Source of the DNA: Bdellovibrionia bacterium
GTDB taxonomy: Bacteria > Bdellovibrionota > Bdellovibrionia > Bdellovibrionales > JAGQZY01
Assembly (NCBI GenBank): GCA_030427805.1
Contig: JAUICP010000005.1
Coordinates: forward strand, 124,001-188,000
Length of the DNA stretch: 64,000 bases
Direction of reading: 5' to 3'
Part shown: positions 2,336 through 48,864 of the stretch, one piece after another
How the letters are laid out: each line of letters begins with the position of its first letter
How positions within the stretch are numbered: the stretch's first letter is position 1
The notes under the pieces: generated by a model
Database searches by the model: none
Told to the model about the DNA's origin: nothing
What the model saw: only the letters and a program-made list of their open reading frames with translations
Made by a program: the position numbers and the translations under genes

Positions 2336-3916
2336 TCATTGCTCTTTTGACAGGCTCTGGGAGCTGACCTTTTGAACTATGGCTTCAGCAACGCGAATTC
2401 CATCACAAGCTGCACTTGTAATTCCACCGGCATAACCAGCTCCTTCTCCAGTTGGGTAGAGCCCCCGATGACTGAGGGATTCTAGGGATTCTTTGTCACG
2501 AGTAATCCGAATTGGGCACGAGGTTCGTGATTCCACTCCATGGAGTTGTGCTTTTGAGTGAATAAAGCCATGCATTTTACTGTGAAAACTTTCGAGGGCC
2601 TCACGCATTTGCAGAGTCAGACCTTCTGGTAAGAGTTGATCGAGCCTGACGGGGATAATTCCACTGAGGCTCGAAGACGGGAGAGCGCCACGCGACTTAC
2701 CGGTTAAAAAATCGATCAAGGCTTGCGCCGGGATTTCTTTTTTGCCCCCTTTATTTTTAACCATCTGCAGAGCATTTTTTTCAAGCTGCTCCCTGAATTT
2801 AAGGCCACCGAGAAGGTCACCTGCAAAATGCTGATCGTGATCGATACTGATAACGATGGCTGAGTTGGCAAAAGGTGAGTTCCGGTTGTAGTTACTCATA
2901 CCATTGCAAACGACCCCACTGGCTTCTGTTCCTGCAGACAAAACATAACCACCAGGGCACATACAAAAGCTAAACACACCGAGGCCCGTTTCTCGATCGT
3001 TATAGGCTAATCGATAATTGGCCGCTCCAAGTTTGGGATGGTCATAGGAGTCACGGTACTGGATTTTGTTAATCACATCCTGGGGGTGCTCAACCCTGAG
3101 GCCCAAGGCAAAGGATTTACCTTCGACGCGGACATTTTTTTCGATCAACTCGTGGAAGAGATGATTCTCTGAGTGGCCTGTCGCTAATACGACATGGGGA
3201 CTGTGAAACTGCGTGCCGTCGGCACATTCGAGTCCTTCGATTTCGTTGTTTTTTAAGAGAAGGGACGTCACCTTCTTATTGAAGTGAATGGTGCAGCCAT
3301 TTTCTAAAAGGTACTTCCTCATCTTGGGGATGAGTCGACGAATTCGATCGGAACCCACATGGGGATTGGCCAAGTATTTGATTTCTTCTGGAGCACCAAA
3401 GCGGACAAAGCGGTCCATGACATAGGGGATATGGGGGCTCTTAATTCGAGTAATTAGTTTTCCGTCAGAAAAGAGACCGGCACCACCCTCGCCAAAGCAG
3501 ACATTGTCGTCGGGATCGAGGTCACCATTTCTCCAGAATTTAGCGATTTTAAGAATTCTTTTTTCAGCGGGAGATCCTCTTTCAAGAAGGACACAGGGGA
3601 TACCACGTTCGATCAGACGAATTGCCGCAAATAATCCTGCGGGACCCGCTCCGACGATCAGTACGGGTTCTCCTTGGTATTTAATTCGTTCAGGAGTGAG
3701 GTCTTCTTCGACGGGAGTTTCCCCGGGGCCGTAAACTTCAAGGCTATAGATAAAATGGGGCTTTCGGGATTTTCGCGCATCTATGGACTTTTTCAATATA
3801 CGGTAGCTCGAAAAATCGGGCACCATATAGGCGAGCTTTTCCTCTAAATCTTCATTGAGTCGTACTTCGAGATCTTTAATCTGTTTACTCATTCCAGAAG
3901 GGCCCTTTAATACCAT
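2336..3916 (-). CDS. FAD-dependent dehydrogenase (COG2509-like)
   Basis: Rossmann motif VLIVGAGPAGLFAAIRLIERG; FGEGGAGLFSDGKL; C-terminal GLYPTGEGAGYAGGITSAACDGIRVAEAI. Confidence 0.85.
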   Translation of the reverse strand: MVLKGPSGMSKQIKDLEVRLNEDLEEKLAYMVPDFSSYRILKKSIDARKSRKPHFIYSLEVYGPGETPVEEDLTPERIKYQGEPVLIVGAGPAGLFAAIRLIERGIPCVLLERGSPAEKRILKIAKFWRNGDLDPDDNVCFGEGGAGLFSDGKLITRIKSPHIPYVMDRFVRFGAPEEIKYLANPHVGSDRIRRLIPKMRKYLLENGCTIHFNKKVTSLLLKNNEIEGLECADGTQFHSPHVVLATGHSENHLFHELIEKNVRVEGKSFALGLRVEHPQDVINKIQYRDSYDHPKLGAANYRLAYNDRETGLGVFSFCMCPGGYVLSAGTEASGVVCNGMSNYNRNSPFANSAIVISIDHDQHFAGDLLGGLKFREQLEKNALQMVKNKGGKKEIPAQALIDFLTGKSRGALPSSSLSGIIPVRLDQLLPEGLTLQMREALESFHSKMHGFIHSKAQLHGVESRTSCPIRITRDKESLESLSHRGLYPTGEGAGYAGGITSAACDGIRVAEAIVQKVSSQSLSKEQ

Positions 3917-3985: not shown

Positions 3986-4840
3986 ATGAAAAACAAATTA
4001 TTAAAAACAATACTGCCAGCTATCCCGAAAAATCTACTTTCACGCAAGGTAGGTGCATTTACAGATAAAGAGCTACCAGGCCCACTGGCCTCATTATCTC
4101 TAAAGGCCTTTGTAGAGTTTACGGGCATCGATATGGATGAGGCTGAAAAACCCCTCGCTGAATATAAAAGTATTGGCGATTTGTTTATTCGTCGCCTGAA
4201 GCCAGGCGTTCGCCCTCTCGGGACGGCGCCGGTCCATCCTGCTGATGGAAAAATTATCAGTGGCGGTCCGATTCAAGACGGAAAACTCGATCAATTTAAG
4301 GGAAGACAGTATTCATTGGTTGAATTTATTCGTCAGACCCAACTTAGTGAAAAGTTTGAGGGTGGGTATTTTGCGACCACCTATTTGAGCCCGAAAGATT
4401 ACCACCGGGTGCACTGTCCAGTAGACGGAACTCTTTTTTGGGTCAAACACATTCCTGGTGAGCTGTGGCCCGTTAACCAAACCTACGTTGAGAGTTTTCC
4501 TCAGTTGTTTATTGAGAACGAGCGATTAGTTATTGGCATTCAGACGGCCACGGGGCCTGTCATGGTTGTGATGGTTGGTGCTACAAATGTCGGCAAAATG
4601 AGTTTGATCCCTGATAATAATTGGCTCACCAATCAGCCAAGTTCCATGCGCAGAGCTCGCGAAAAGAGCTATGAACCTGGTATTGAATTAAAGGCTGGTG
4701 ATGAACTCGGGATTTTTCACATGGGTAGTACAGTGGTTTGTCTTTTTTCTAAAGAGTACCGTGATTCTCTGGATAGTTTTCAAGTGCCTCTAGGGACTTG
4801 TCGAGTCAACTCTAGTTATTCGCCGATAAAGGCCAAATGA
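3986..4840 (+). CDS. psd: Phosphatidylserine decarboxylase
   Basis: HPADGKI motif, YLSPKDYHRVHCPVDG, and LGIFHMGSTVV with the GST autocleavage motif. Confidence 0.95.
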   Translation: MKNKLLKTILPAIPKNLLSRKVGAFTDKELPGPLASLSLKAFVEFTGIDMDEAEKPLAEYKSIGDLFIRRLKPGVRPLGTAPVHPADGKIISGGPIQDGKLDQFKGRQYSLVEFIRQTQLSEKFEGGYFATTYLSPKDYHRVHCPVDGTLFWVKHIPGELWPVNQTYVESFPQLFIENERLVIGIQTATGPVMVVMVGATNVGKMSLIPDNNWLTNQPSSMRRAREKSYEPGIELKAGDELGIFHMGSTVVCLFSKEYRDSLDSFQVPLGTCRVNSSYSPIKAK

Positions 4841-44774: not shown

Positions 44775-45242
44775 ATGCAGGCGAGAATTAAAGAAAATAA
44801 CGACATTTTAGTAGTAGATTTAATTGGCAGAATTGATATTGAGGCTACTGTTGGTTTTGAGCGTGCCTGTGGCCAGCTTGCTGAACGAAAGATCGTTTTT
44901 GATTGCACAGACCTAAGTTTTGTTGGTTCAAATGGAATCAAACCCTTTCTCGAAGCCATGTCTGATCTTGTCGAAAACAAACAGGCTCAATTGAAGTTTT
45001 GTGGGGTTGGCTCTGAATTTAAAAAGATCTTCGCTGCAAGTAGCTTATCCCATGTTGAAATCTATGAAGATGTGAATCGCGCCGTCGATTCATTTAGCCA
45101 TAAGGTTATCAATCCTTCAATGGTGGGTGCCCAGGGCGATCCAAGACCTTGGGCTGAAGCAACTGTAACGACAGCTCCGGCGGAGCCAGTCCAGGTGACT
45201 CAAACCACAAATACCGAAGGCGAAGACACTAAAGCCTGCTAA
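44775..45242 (+). CDS. STAS-domain (anti-sigma factor antagonist-like) protein
   Basis: MQARIKENNDILVVDLIGRIDIEATVGFERACGQLAERKIVFDCTDLSFVGSNGIKPFLEAM; conserved D-x-S-F-V-x-S-x-G. Confidence 0.85.
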   Translation: MQARIKENNDILVVDLIGRIDIEATVGFERACGQLAERKIVFDCTDLSFVGSNGIKPFLEAMSDLVENKQAQLKFCGVGSEFKKIFAASSLSHVEIYEDVNRAVDSFSHKVINPSMVGAQGDPRPWAEATVTTAPAEPVQVTQTTNTEGEDTKAC

Positions 45243-46597
45243 GGCTGGGGCTTCGGCGGAATTCCAGACTGTATTTCAGCAATGAGACCTTCAATTTTTT
45301 GCATGCTTTGCTGTGCTTTGCGAACGTTCTTAACTCGATCAGAAAGTTCCTCGTGTGCGCCCTCAAGGCTATCGCCCCTGGCATCTCCGACAGACTGTGA
45401 CTTTAATTTACCGGCCAATTCGCGGTTTATCGACTGAAGGCGTTGGTATTTGCCAACAAGGTCTTTGCTCTCTTTTTGCTTTTCGTTCCAGAGAATTTGC
45501 AGAGACTCCAGCTGATCTTGAAGGCGATCATTCTCGTCTTTAAGGAATTGTCTTTCATCCCGAGATTGATTGAGCTCTTCTCTGAGATGGTCGATCTCAA
45601 TACTCGAAGATTTGGCCTCAGAACGATAACTATTTAATTGAGATTGAATAGACTCGATATTTTCTTGGCTTCTCAGGCCGAGTTCATCAAGGTGACGTTT
45701 AAGACGAATATTCTCGTTGGCCAAAAAGCTAGCTTCTTCTGCCTTCTTTTTGAAAATCTCAAGACTTTCGCGGATCGAATTAAGTTCTGCGTTTAACTCT
45801 TCTGTACCTTTAATGTTTTCTTCGATTTTTTGCTCATAAGAGTTTGTTAAAGCGCTTATTTGCTGTTGATGCTGCTTTTCTTTATTTTCGATATGCTCTG
45901 CAAGTTGCAGGTTCTTATCTTTAAGCTCTGATCGGCGCATTTGCTCATCGATGAGGCTTTGATCCAATAGCTGAATTTTCGCTTTTAAGTCCTTTAATTC
46001 ATTTTGCAAACTGCGAATCAAGGGGCGTACCCAGCGTTTAATTCGTCGCTGGTAACGTTTAAAGCTAGAGAGCAGTTTTTTGCTCGTGTCTTGAAGCTTC
46101 GCCAGGCTTTGTTTGCGCTGATCCATTTGGTCAGAAAGTTCAGAGTAGCGTATTTCGTAGAGCTGAAGTTCTTCTTTAAGTTTTGAATGGTTTTGTTCAA
46201 GTTCTATAAAACGCTTAGAAGCTTGTTTATCTTTCTCTCGTAATATTTGATTTTGATGAAAGATATTGTCGGCATGATCCTGAACTTCCAGGTTTCGATC
46301 TTTGAGCTCTATGATTTTCTGCTCGAGTAGTGATTGTCTGCGAATAGTGACCTTAAGTCGAGACATGAGGTCGTCATTCTGTCCGATCAGGGTCTCTACA
46401 GTTCCGGAGTGGAGGATGTCCTTGGGCAATTCAGAGAGCTGAGGAGGCTCAGGAATCTCGTTTGGAAGTGGTACCGGTATGCTGTCGATTTCTGTTTTAG
46501 AAAAGGCAGTCGTTTCTTCCTTTTCTTGATCCCAATTAGCCACTTCATTCCTCCTTGAAAAAAGTGTCTTTGATAACTCAATTGAAAGTTGTTCCAC
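45239..46597 (-). CDS. Long coiled-coil protein
   Basis: Heptad-like E/K/Q/L-rich throughout ~350 aa. Confidence 0.75.
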   Translation of the reverse strand: MEQLSIELSKTLFSRRNEVANWDQEKEETTAFSKTEIDSIPVPLPNEIPEPPQLSELPKDILHSGTVETLIGQNDDLMSRLKVTIRRQSLLEQKIIELKDRNLEVQDHADNIFHQNQILREKDKQASKRFIELEQNHSKLKEELQLYEIRYSELSDQMDQRKQSLAKLQDTSKKLLSSFKRYQRRIKRWVRPLIRSLQNELKDLKAKIQLLDQSLIDEQMRRSELKDKNLQLAEHIENKEKQHQQQISALTNSYEQKIEENIKGTEELNAELNSIRESLEIFKKKAEEASFLANENIRLKRHLDELGLRSQENIESIQSQLNSYRSEAKSSSIEIDHLREELNQSRDERQFLKDENDRLQDQLESLQILWNEKQKESKDLVGKYQRLQSINRELAGKLKSQSVGDARGDSLEGAHEELSDRVKNVRKAQQSMQKIEGLIAEIQSGIPPKPQP

Positions 46598-46742: not shown

Positions 46743-47378
46743 ATGGGTGAGAAGGCATTAACTCTCTTAGAAGAAGAAAACAAGATTCTTGAAGAAGTCT
46801 CTTCTCCGACTTTGGATTTAATTCAAGCGACTAAGTTATCGGATGAAGAAATTCTCCGTGAGTCGGGCTTGAGTCGAGATGAATTGGGAGGAAGGGAAGG
46901 GTTGCTACGAGCGATTCTTTCTTTCGTTATTAACCAAGAGTTTCCGAAAGCACGGGGAGAGCTCGAACTTTATGTCGACTCACACTATAACTACCCAGAC
47001 TTTAAGCCTCGAACAGAGCGCTATGTTCAGTATGCCAAGGACTTAATCAACGCTATTCAAGCAAAGCGTGAATTTTCGGCCAAGGCCCATTTGCGAAATT
47101 CAAAGCAACAAGAGCTTCAAGAGAAAGTCTACAATCACTATCGAGAGCTAAAGATCGTTTTAAAGAGGATCGAAGCGGTCGATCGAGAGCTCCGACTTGA
47201 AGACGTGAAGTCGACCGTTATTTTTGTTAAGGGGAGTCTCATCACCCTGGCCACGGTCGTCAGCGTACTCTTCGTGAGAGAAGTTATTTTGAATCGCCAT
47301 CCCGAATCCTGGTGGTTTGCGCTGCGGGATTTTGTGTTACGCTTCACCGGCTACTTCTTCGAGCTGATCGGCCTTTAA
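46743..47378 (+). CDS. Hypothetical protein with C-terminal TM segment
   Basis: Charged helical region then VIFVKGSLITLATVVSVLFVREVIL. Confidence 0.65.
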   Translation: MGEKALTLLEEENKILEEVSSPTLDLIQATKLSDEEILRESGLSRDELGGREGLLRAILSFVINQEFPKARGELELYVDSHYNYPDFKPRTERYVQYAKDLINAIQAKREFSAKAHLRNSKQQELQEKVYNHYRELKIVLKRIEAVDRELRLEDVKSTVIFVKGSLITLATVVSVLFVREVILNRHPESWWFALRDFVLRFTGYFFELIGL

Positions 47379-47633
47379 CGTTCTTTATAACTTCGTTACA
47401 TCGTCGTCGCTGTACGCCTATGTACAGCTTCCTCCTCGTGCCTCGTTATAAAGAACGTTCCATGACCGAAGACTTCGTTACATCGTCGTCGCTGTACGCC
47501 TATGTACAGCTTCCTCCTCGTGCCTCGTTATAAAGAACGTTCCACGACCGAAGACTTCGTTACATCGTCGTCGCTGTACGCCTATGTACAGCTTCCTCCT
47601 CGTGCCTCGTTATAAAGAACGTTCCACGGCCGA
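47377..47633. repeat. Three tandem 82-bp repeats with internal hairpin, preceded by a 15-bp arm inverted relative to the unit end
   Basis: Units start at 47390, 47472 and 47554 (ACTTCGTTACATCGTCGTCGCTGTACGCCTATGTACAGCTTCCTCCTCGTGCCTCGTTATAAAGAACGTTCCA(T/C)G(A/G)CCGAAG); AACGTTCTTTATAAC (47377-47391) is the exact reverse complement of GTTATAAAGAACGTT (47445-47459). Confidence 0.97.
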
Positions 47634-47649
47634 CAGCATTTTCGCTGTA

Positions 47650-48864
47650 CTAATTTTTTTGTAGGCTGGCTCGCTTGGCTTCAAGTAATATGGGCAACAT
47701 CTGTCCGCCAGGAAGCTTCTTATTGTTTGCATAAATCGTCGGAGTTCCGAGAACGCCGACCTCTTTACCCAGTTTCGCTTGATTGCGAATGAGTTCATGG
47801 GTGTCTTCTGATTCGTAGCAGGACTTAAGTTTATCGCCGTCTAATCCCAAGTCAGCAATCATCTCGGTCATTTTGTTTTCGACAATCTCTTTGGTCGCGA
47901 AGGTTCCTTGCCGAGAAAAAATCCATTCGTGGGCATCCCAGCCTTTATCTTGTTCAGAGGCACAATGGGCAAGGTAAGCCAAACCACAAGAAGATCCCGA
48001 GCTCTGCGGAATCGCTTCGTTGCAAGCGCCGTCTAAGGGGAAGGCCTGGAATTCAAGGCGAACATCTGGGTTTGCTTGAACAAATGCTTTAAGAGTTGGT
48101 GCCGCGTTTTTACAGTGACCACAGCGAAAATCAGCAAATTCCACAAGGGTCATTACGGCTTTATCTTTATCGGCTCCTAGAGATAGGGGCGATAAGGTTG
48201 CAATATCTTTTACAGAGTTTGTTTTCCATTCCTGAATGCTCGCTTCAATAATTGAGGAAGCTCCCGAACCAAGAAACTGCTTATTGTAGACCTTGCTGAA
48301 GAGAAAGCTGAAAGCGAGAGTCACGACCGCAAGGATAATTCCAGGTTGAAGGACTTGGAAGTTTAACGGTGAAAGAGCGAGTAATTTGTCCTCTTTCATA
48401 TACATCCACGCAGCAATTAAAGTGATAATTGAAAGGCCATAGGCGACCATACAAAATGGGCAAATGGAGTCTAATTGAGTAAAGGTTATGGCTGCCATTA
48501 CGATTGAGGTCAGGAAGATGACCAAGGTGGTGCCAAATATAGCGTTTCTAAAGCCCGGTTTGTTATTTTCACCGAAAAATCGAAAGGCGTAAAGGAGAGT
48601 GAGAAGCGCTAAGAAGAAGTTCATAAAGCCGCCGAGCATGGCCAGAGGAATTCCAAATAACTCCGAGTAGGAGCTGGCAGCGGCGACATCGCAGTTGAGT
48701 TTTTCGCCGATATTGCAAAGGCTATCGCCTCCCAATTGCCCGGCTTTAACTTTGTAATGGTGAATGGTTAGGTAGCCGTGGACAGCCGCTGCGCCCAAAG
48801 TCGAAAGAATAAGTACTAATAGACCAGGACCTTTAAGAGAATTTTCCTTAACTTCACTAGACAT
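47650..48864 (-). CDS. VKOR-family membrane protein fused to DsbA-like thioredoxin domain
   Basis: VKOR: GGDSLCNIGEKLNCDVAAASSYSELFGIPLAMLG, DSICPFCMVAYGLS; thioredoxin: VEFADFRCGHCKNAAPTL, GVLGTPTIYANNKKLPGG. Confidence 0.92.
   Translation of the reverse strand: MSSEVKENSLKGPGLLVLILSTLGAAAVHGYLTIHHYKVKAGQLGGDSLCNIGEKLNCDVAAASSYSELFGIPLAMLGGFMNFFLALLTLLYAFRFFGENNKPGFRNAIFGTTLVIFLTSIVMAAITFTQLDSICPFCMVAYGLSIITLIAAWMYMKEDKLLALSPLNFQVLQPGIILAVVTLAFSFLFSKVYNKQFLGSGASSIIEASIQEWKTNSVKDIATLSPLSLGADKDKAVMTLVEFADFRCGHCKNAAPTLKAFVQANPDVRLEFQAFPLDGACNEAIPQSSGSSCGLAYLAHCASEQDKGWDAHEWIFSRQGTFATKEIVENKMTEMIADLGLDGDKLKSCYESEDTHELIRNQAKLGKEVGVLGTPTIYANNKKLPGGQMLPILLEAKRASLQKN

Follow-up and report, generated by a model that had tools for sequence, protein, structure and literature searches.

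Interspersed long hairpins of Bdellovibrionota with a defined folding strand, a gene-end position and a replication-linked orientation

The tandem array and its hairpin

The window, by which we mean the whole 64-kb stretch of DNA that was analysed, was searched for tandem arrays with Tandem Repeats Finder. A single array was found, at 47390-47633, with a period of 82, 3.0 copies and 98% matches. The array and its neighbours comprise the following features, in which the element strand is the strand on which the hairpin is read:

46743..47378, plus strand: gene of 211 aa whose stop codon is the hairpin foot; without Pfam match
47377..47391, minus strand (element strand): 3' outer arm, complete hairpin; inverted repeat matching 47445-47459 exactly; covers the last two bases of the TAA
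47392..47444, minus strand: conserved asymmetric core of unit 1, with the inner hairpin at 47409-47428; covariance-model match and family covariation
47445..47459, minus strand: 5' outer arm, complete hairpin; inverted repeat matching 47377-47391 exactly; compensatory change at locus L075
47472..47541, minus strand: partial tandem copy with core 47472-47528 and 5' arm 47527-47541, without 3' arm; model positions 10-65, 58.2 bits; direct repeat
47554..47623, minus strand: partial tandem copy with core 47554-47610 and 5' arm 47609-47623, without 3' arm; model positions 10-65, 58.2 bits; direct repeat
47650..48864, minus strand: far-side gene encoding a VKOR-DsbA fusion, outside the element; Pfam DSBA and VKOR

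The three units start at 47390, 47472 and 47554 and together span 47390-47635; compared with copy 1, copy 2 is 99% and copy 3 95% identical. The sequence GCTGTAC-GCCTAT-GTACAGC occurs exactly at 47409, 47491 and 47573, against a chance expectation of 0 in shuffles. In addition, GTTATAAAGAACGTT, present at 47445, 47527 and 47609, is reverse-complementary to AACGTTCTTTATAAC (47377-47391) at every base. The first-pass annotation had described three in-phase 82-bp units, each with a 7-bp-stem palindrome, whose left edge looked like a palindrome terminus and which lay between the stop codon of the 46743-47378 gene and the 3' end of the VKOR-DsbA gene. Tandem Repeats Finder and alignment bear out the unit coordinates and spacing, the palindrome is exact at all three positions, AACGTTCTTTATAAC proves to be the opposite arm of a hairpin, and the gene coordinates agree. 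A further predicted protein in the window (45239-46597) has no Pfam match and has the look of a coiled coil.

Both arms are present in unit 1 only, as the 3' arm is absent from units 2 and 3. The complete hairpin is the gene-proximal unit (47377-47459), in which, read on the minus strand, an outer stem that varies encloses an asymmetric, conserved core, and the covariance model described below matches it at 47381-47455 on the minus strand with 90.3 bits (E 2.3e-22). The hairpin opens in a stop codon: the TAA at 47376-47378 of the 46743-47378 gene contains the start of the arm AACGTTCTTTATAAC. The array is not an assembly artefact, because a sister species (G001, locus L075) has it at the same place with 2.3 units; the outer arm there differs by a compensatory G-C to T-A change. 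In the window, one full and two truncated copies stand in tandem; they belong to an interspersed, non-coding family of long hairpins in Bdellovibrionota.

A family with a common core and locus-specific stems

A BLAST-type search of the host genome found the array and two diverged relatives. Their middle was conserved, and their outer inverted arms were unrelated in sequence yet still complementary. The core of the three copies aligned readily, and a covariance model built from them (R1) matched 12 places in the host genome and found copies in 12 of 15 related genomes. We then aligned 78 copies to R1 (alignment A2) and made a refined model, R2. Within the class Bdellovibrionia it matched 58 of the 144 genomes, the richest of which holds 21 copies. 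Across the phylum, 74 of 369 genomes matched at E<=1e-4; beyond the class the matches were weaker but sometimes multi-copy. Presence is patchy: copy number runs from 0 to 21 inside one genus, and several relatives have no copies. The 82-bp units proper are restricted to the genus of the host. A scan of named genomes for the exact pattern returned Bdellovibrionia and Bdellovibrionales MAGs only, but such a scan is narrow in reach because the core varies.

The first-pass annotation had taken the block for a REP- or MITE-like interspersed intergenic element and had named the host genome and its relatives as the place to seek further copies. That part stands, as the host holds 11-12 copies by the covariance model and relatives across the class hold many more; the accompanying guesses of a RAYT transposase, a bias to convergent genes and a terminator role find no support in the tests. 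Rfam 15 gave no match at E<=1 for three loci and, at the gathering threshold, only one tRNA across the window. Among the titles and abstracts listed by literature searches we found no described Bdellovibrio palindromic repeat. Eight attack-phase sRNAs and merRNA have been reported (PMC3627812). The family occurs in none of the libraries or papers searched and is apparently undescribed.

On the element strand the order is 5' arm - C RAGGCGC RA GGAG GA A G - GTAC loop GTAC - C GA CGAC GA A GCAAC RMA G - 3' arm. The outer stem is locus-specific, with a mode of about 25 bp, and mostly ends 24-28 bp from the core; that of the window hairpin is shorter (15 bp). Many copies share the one core and have unrelated outer arms. 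When a 25-pair structure was scored on A2, 86.4% of cells were paired (62.1% after shuffling), two-sided changes occurred at 23 of the 25 pairs, and the covariation score was 0.541, compared with 0.146 for shuffled and 0.06-0.09 for slid alignments; A2 was fitted to the outer and inner stems of R1, so that counts for those stems lean towards the structure, and the core pairs lie outside R1. Covariation is strong in the outer stem, in the inner stem and at core pairs 19-74 and 20-73 (G-C to A-T, C-G to T-A). The covariation support for the family is overwhelming. The middle helix is mostly G-C / G.A / A.G / G-C and is fully Watson-Crick in other copies (GACC/GGTC, GCTC/GAGC), which suggests that it may hold tandem G.A pairs in the rest. 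Taken as a whole, the fold is rod-like: the outer stem leads to a core in which Watson-Crick pairs covary and the short internal loops are rich in G.A, and the rod is closed by a small inner hairpin.

The two strands of the element are not equivalent. Departures from pairing in the outer stems of 61 copies, read on the element strand, comprised 82 G.T compared with 18 A.C, and 73 A.G or G.A compared with 13 C.T or T.C; on the other strand the same departures read as A.C and C.T mismatches. This excess of G.T and A.G shows that it is a single, defined strand (minus in the window) that is kept foldable. In 117 of 132 copies, DNA folding predictions also gave the element strand the more stable structure.

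Orthologous copies were also compared. Twelve stem pairs had changed on both sides and were still paired, and 11 had changed to or from G.T; there were also 19 differences between paired and mismatched states, 7 of which came from one gap-shifted comparison. Such pair-preserving changes show that the copies are kept foldable, whether through selection or through template-switch repair.

Position, replication orientation and turnover

The hairpins sit at gene ends. In 46 of 65 copies the stop codon of an opposite-strand gene lies within 23 nt of the 3' end of the model, mostly at 10-17 nt, which is the hairpin foot. Copies without a stop codon there adjoin the ribosome-binding region of a gene reading outward or a tRNA, or have an unresolved neighbour (neighbours were called with a simple ORF caller). 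The genes abutted mostly differ from genus to genus. The gene on the 5', or far, side lies at a variable distance and faces either way (27 compared with 37). Convergent genes enclose just 20 of about 64 copies, so the expected bias to convergent intergenic regions did not hold up. At L084, L092, L122, L174 and L192, a tRNA gene on the element strand directly follows the copy. In G017, G067 and G069, the copies that precede the GGGGTGTAGCTCCAG tRNA belong to the group facing the opposite way relative to replication.

In genomes that are complete, the element strand changes between minus and plus from one chromosome half to the other. When the strand switch was taken as the boundary, 20 of 21 copies agreed in G067, 16 of 19 in G069, 12 of 12 in G066 and 12 of 12 in G034, and 15 of 17 agreed in the reverse sense in G065; all of these are related species that share orthologous copies, so the counts are not independent. 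With borders set at half the genome length, 47 of the 52 copies of G066, G067 and G069 agreed. The sign of the GC skew flips where the element orientation flips (38 stretches of G065, G066, G067 and G069 and two of G034, some of them noisy). The skew of G065, which was deposited flipped, is reversed and matches its reversed element orientation. Local skew agreed at 55 of 61 loci in 11 genomes, although skew over a few kilobases is partly gene-driven. The window fits the same rule: its GC skew is positive throughout and the element is on the minus strand. As the element lies on minus where the skew is positive, the element strand is the leading-strand template. It is almost always this C-rich strand, and it has the sequence of the nascent lagging strand. 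We also considered orientation as a by-product of gene direction and rejected it: the strand bias of long ORFs in sampled 20-kb stretches was weak and inconsistent, and among 14 copies of G066, G067 and G069 whose 3'-side gene is on the element strand, 10 still follow replication. This replication-oriented placement points to a single-strand, replication-linked role.

Closely related species differ in single copies. In sister species with 88-99% identical flanks, sites of single copies are empty or tip-deleted. Some are cleanly empty, such as L187 in G069, where the element of G067 directly follows a stop codon. At L280, the G067 counterpart of L191, both arms are kept and the core is lost, and at L278, the G069 counterpart of the second copy of L186, CAGCAC-TC-GTGCTG stands where G067 has a full element. 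At L196 the more distant G065 holds an apparent arm remnant; a loss in G067 is favoured there by the sequence comparison. A MITE would have transposase-related terminal inverted repeats and a target-site duplication. Among the empty sites compared, a possible target duplication of 8-10 nt was seen at L186 only, and across the family the outer arms differ from copy to copy. L229, the G067 counterpart of L203, is a derivative in which the core or one half is gone and arm sequence is left.

Two further arrays lie in G034, L109 (2958-3303) and L115 (2955-3255), with periods of 115 and 100 bp. In both of them, and in the window array, the repeated unit is the spacer with the 5' arm and the core, and the full 3' arm is found on the gene-proximal unit only. 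The same polarity in three independent arrays suggests that duplication may occur during replication.

Candidate mechanisms

Bacterial interspersed hairpins are usually classed as REPs or terminators. The present family joins unusually strong covariation, a defined folding strand, a near rule-like replication orientation and a fixed position at gene ends, and it does so in Bdellovibrionota, a phylum that includes bacterial predators. It thereby makes it testable whether the site and the orientation of a repeat are decided by a single strand folding at the fork. The covariance model also lets annotators mark sequence that is now blank in Bdellovibrionota genomes.

From structure, strand, placement and orientation we infer a mechanism, which we put forward tentatively and at somewhat under an even chance. 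We propose that the hairpins are non-autonomous interspersed repeats that persist through a single strand folded at the replication fork. This fold, or a protein bound to it, would control gain, loss and tandem amplification. The opposite orientation may be unstable or may never arise, a proposal already made for the bottom strand of attC sites in sedentary integrons. Fork slippage could then have produced the 82-bp array, the unit of 5' arm and core having been copied on the gene-distal side. Searches for Y1 transposases and integron integrases found no enzyme linked to the family, which counts against this proposal. Further points also speak against it. First, the folding strand is on the leading-strand template, whereas known single-strand DNA transposons use the lagging one. 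The ends of IS200/IS605 transposons are likewise hairpins recognised as single strands, with an orientation tied to replication, and insertion into and excision from the lagging-strand template have been described for them (PMC6006769); the present family is likewise strand-specific and replication-polar but does not belong to them, as it has no transposase or guide tetranucleotide and uses the opposite template. Second, the empty sites are in general compatible with gain as well as with loss and showed no clean target duplication. Third, the orientation counts all come from related species. Fourth, the 12 pair-preserving double changes in orthologues also fit a function in cis.

Such a function could be that of an RNA. 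The element-strand transcript might fold and serve as a leader, or as an antisense or 3'-end structure through which transcripts are blocked or processed where genes end. The covarying pairs and G.A-rich internal loops look RNA-like and recall the structured RNAs of Rfam that have conserved internal loops and variable stems. In favour, too, are G.T wobbles kept on one strand, compensatory changes that keep copies foldable, and some copies that lie directly upstream of a start codon or tRNA. Rfam 15 has no match, and placement tracks replication rather than a gene family. The foldable strand is antisense to the abutting gene in most copies, the other neighbour is randomly oriented, gene partners vary among genera, and replication sets the orientation even where gene orientation is reversed. 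We consider a cis-acting RNA unlikely, though the likeliest of the rivals.

A polar site for chromosome organisation or replication, used like KOPS or Ter and read by a protein from origin to terminus, would account for the replichore-consistent orientation along whole chromosomes. Copy numbers from 0 to 21 within one genus, relatives that have none, the lack of obvious clustering near origin or terminus and a fixed distance to the gene edge, which such a site would not lead one to expect, make this improbable.

The first-pass annotation had favoured REP or BIME elements amplified by a RAYT (TnpA_REP) transposase. The likeness is real: REPs and REPINs are short, intergenic, imperfect hairpins, interspersed in many copies per genome and sometimes in tandem clusters, and Y1 transposases (PF01797) are encoded in 12 of the 15 genomes. 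The REP guide (GTAG/GTGG, searched as GT[AG]G) occurred near the foot in 11 of 132 copies on the element strand and 9 of 132 on the other, which is background (control rate 0.064). A scan of roughly 5 kb to either side of 20 Y1 loci gave one true copy, 2.3 kb away, and none that flanked a Y1 gene. At first sight three Y1 genes lay 2-3 kb from matches; this lead was dropped, since two of the matches were weak, no Y1 gene was flanked and the copy-rich G034 lacks Y1. G034 has 12 copies and no PF01797 match. Unlike REPs, the hairpins also have a locus-specific stem of about 25 bp, a conserved apical core and a fold on the leading-strand template. Movement by RAYT is thus largely refuted and very unlikely. 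In G023 there are about 14 Y1_Tnp (PF01797) matches, at positions unrelated to the element.

An intrinsic or bidirectional terminator common to the neighbouring genes, also suggested at first pass, would fit the position at the stop codon and a mild enrichment of T after the hairpin. This enrichment is no real T-tract: the T fraction is about 0.4-0.5 at a few positions, to one side of the hairpin only and on the strand complementary to the fold. In addition, the stem wobbles favour the antisense strand and not the mRNA of the abutting gene, and some copies stand directly upstream of a start codon. At L195 (about 1501-1650) the element is followed by a separate, classical intrinsic terminator (GGCCGAAG...CTTCGGCCTTTTTT). 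There is, in our judgement, very little chance that termination explains the family.

Solitary or clustered attC sites of integrons deserve mention, since the cassettes of sedentary integrons have the folded attC strand on the leading template and a stop codon at the foot (PMC5371416), and both systems are strand-specific and replication-polar. Membership is refuted by two tests. The R-box (RYYYAAC...GTTRRRY) was found at 0-3 of 132 feet on either strand, and the integron integrase (TIGR02249) was above cut-off in none of 16 genomes, the only signal being a background also seen in all 14 controls. Cassette arrays are likewise missing, and it is the apex, not the foot, that is conserved. We therefore give attC membership almost no weight. 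A lone local tandem duplication without wider meaning agrees with the confinement of the 82-bp units proper to one genus and is refuted, to a practical certainty, by a core found in 11-12 places of the host genome and in 58 genomes of the class.

The proposal of a folded strand at the fork can be carried further, to a version that we regard as speculative and rather unlikely. In this version the hairpins would be a new class of bacterial repeat. Selection would act on a single-stranded fold, equal in sequence to the nascent lagging strand, which would insert or rewrite itself at the ends of genes as they are replicated and would make the opposite arm to match the local sequence. If this were true, every copy would have its own stem around the common core, and the swapped 3' halves at L065 and L071 would be a direct trace of the process. 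These loci (2750-3180 in each) come from sister species and have common flanks and an array of alternating 5' half-hairpins, A-B-A(-B). At the stop codon, one species has a complete hairpin of type A/A' and the other of type B/B', each with the matching 3' half.

Lastly, at L014 (about 4064-4110) a second, degenerate core accompanies the complete copy at C6:579320, a pattern shared with other arrays.
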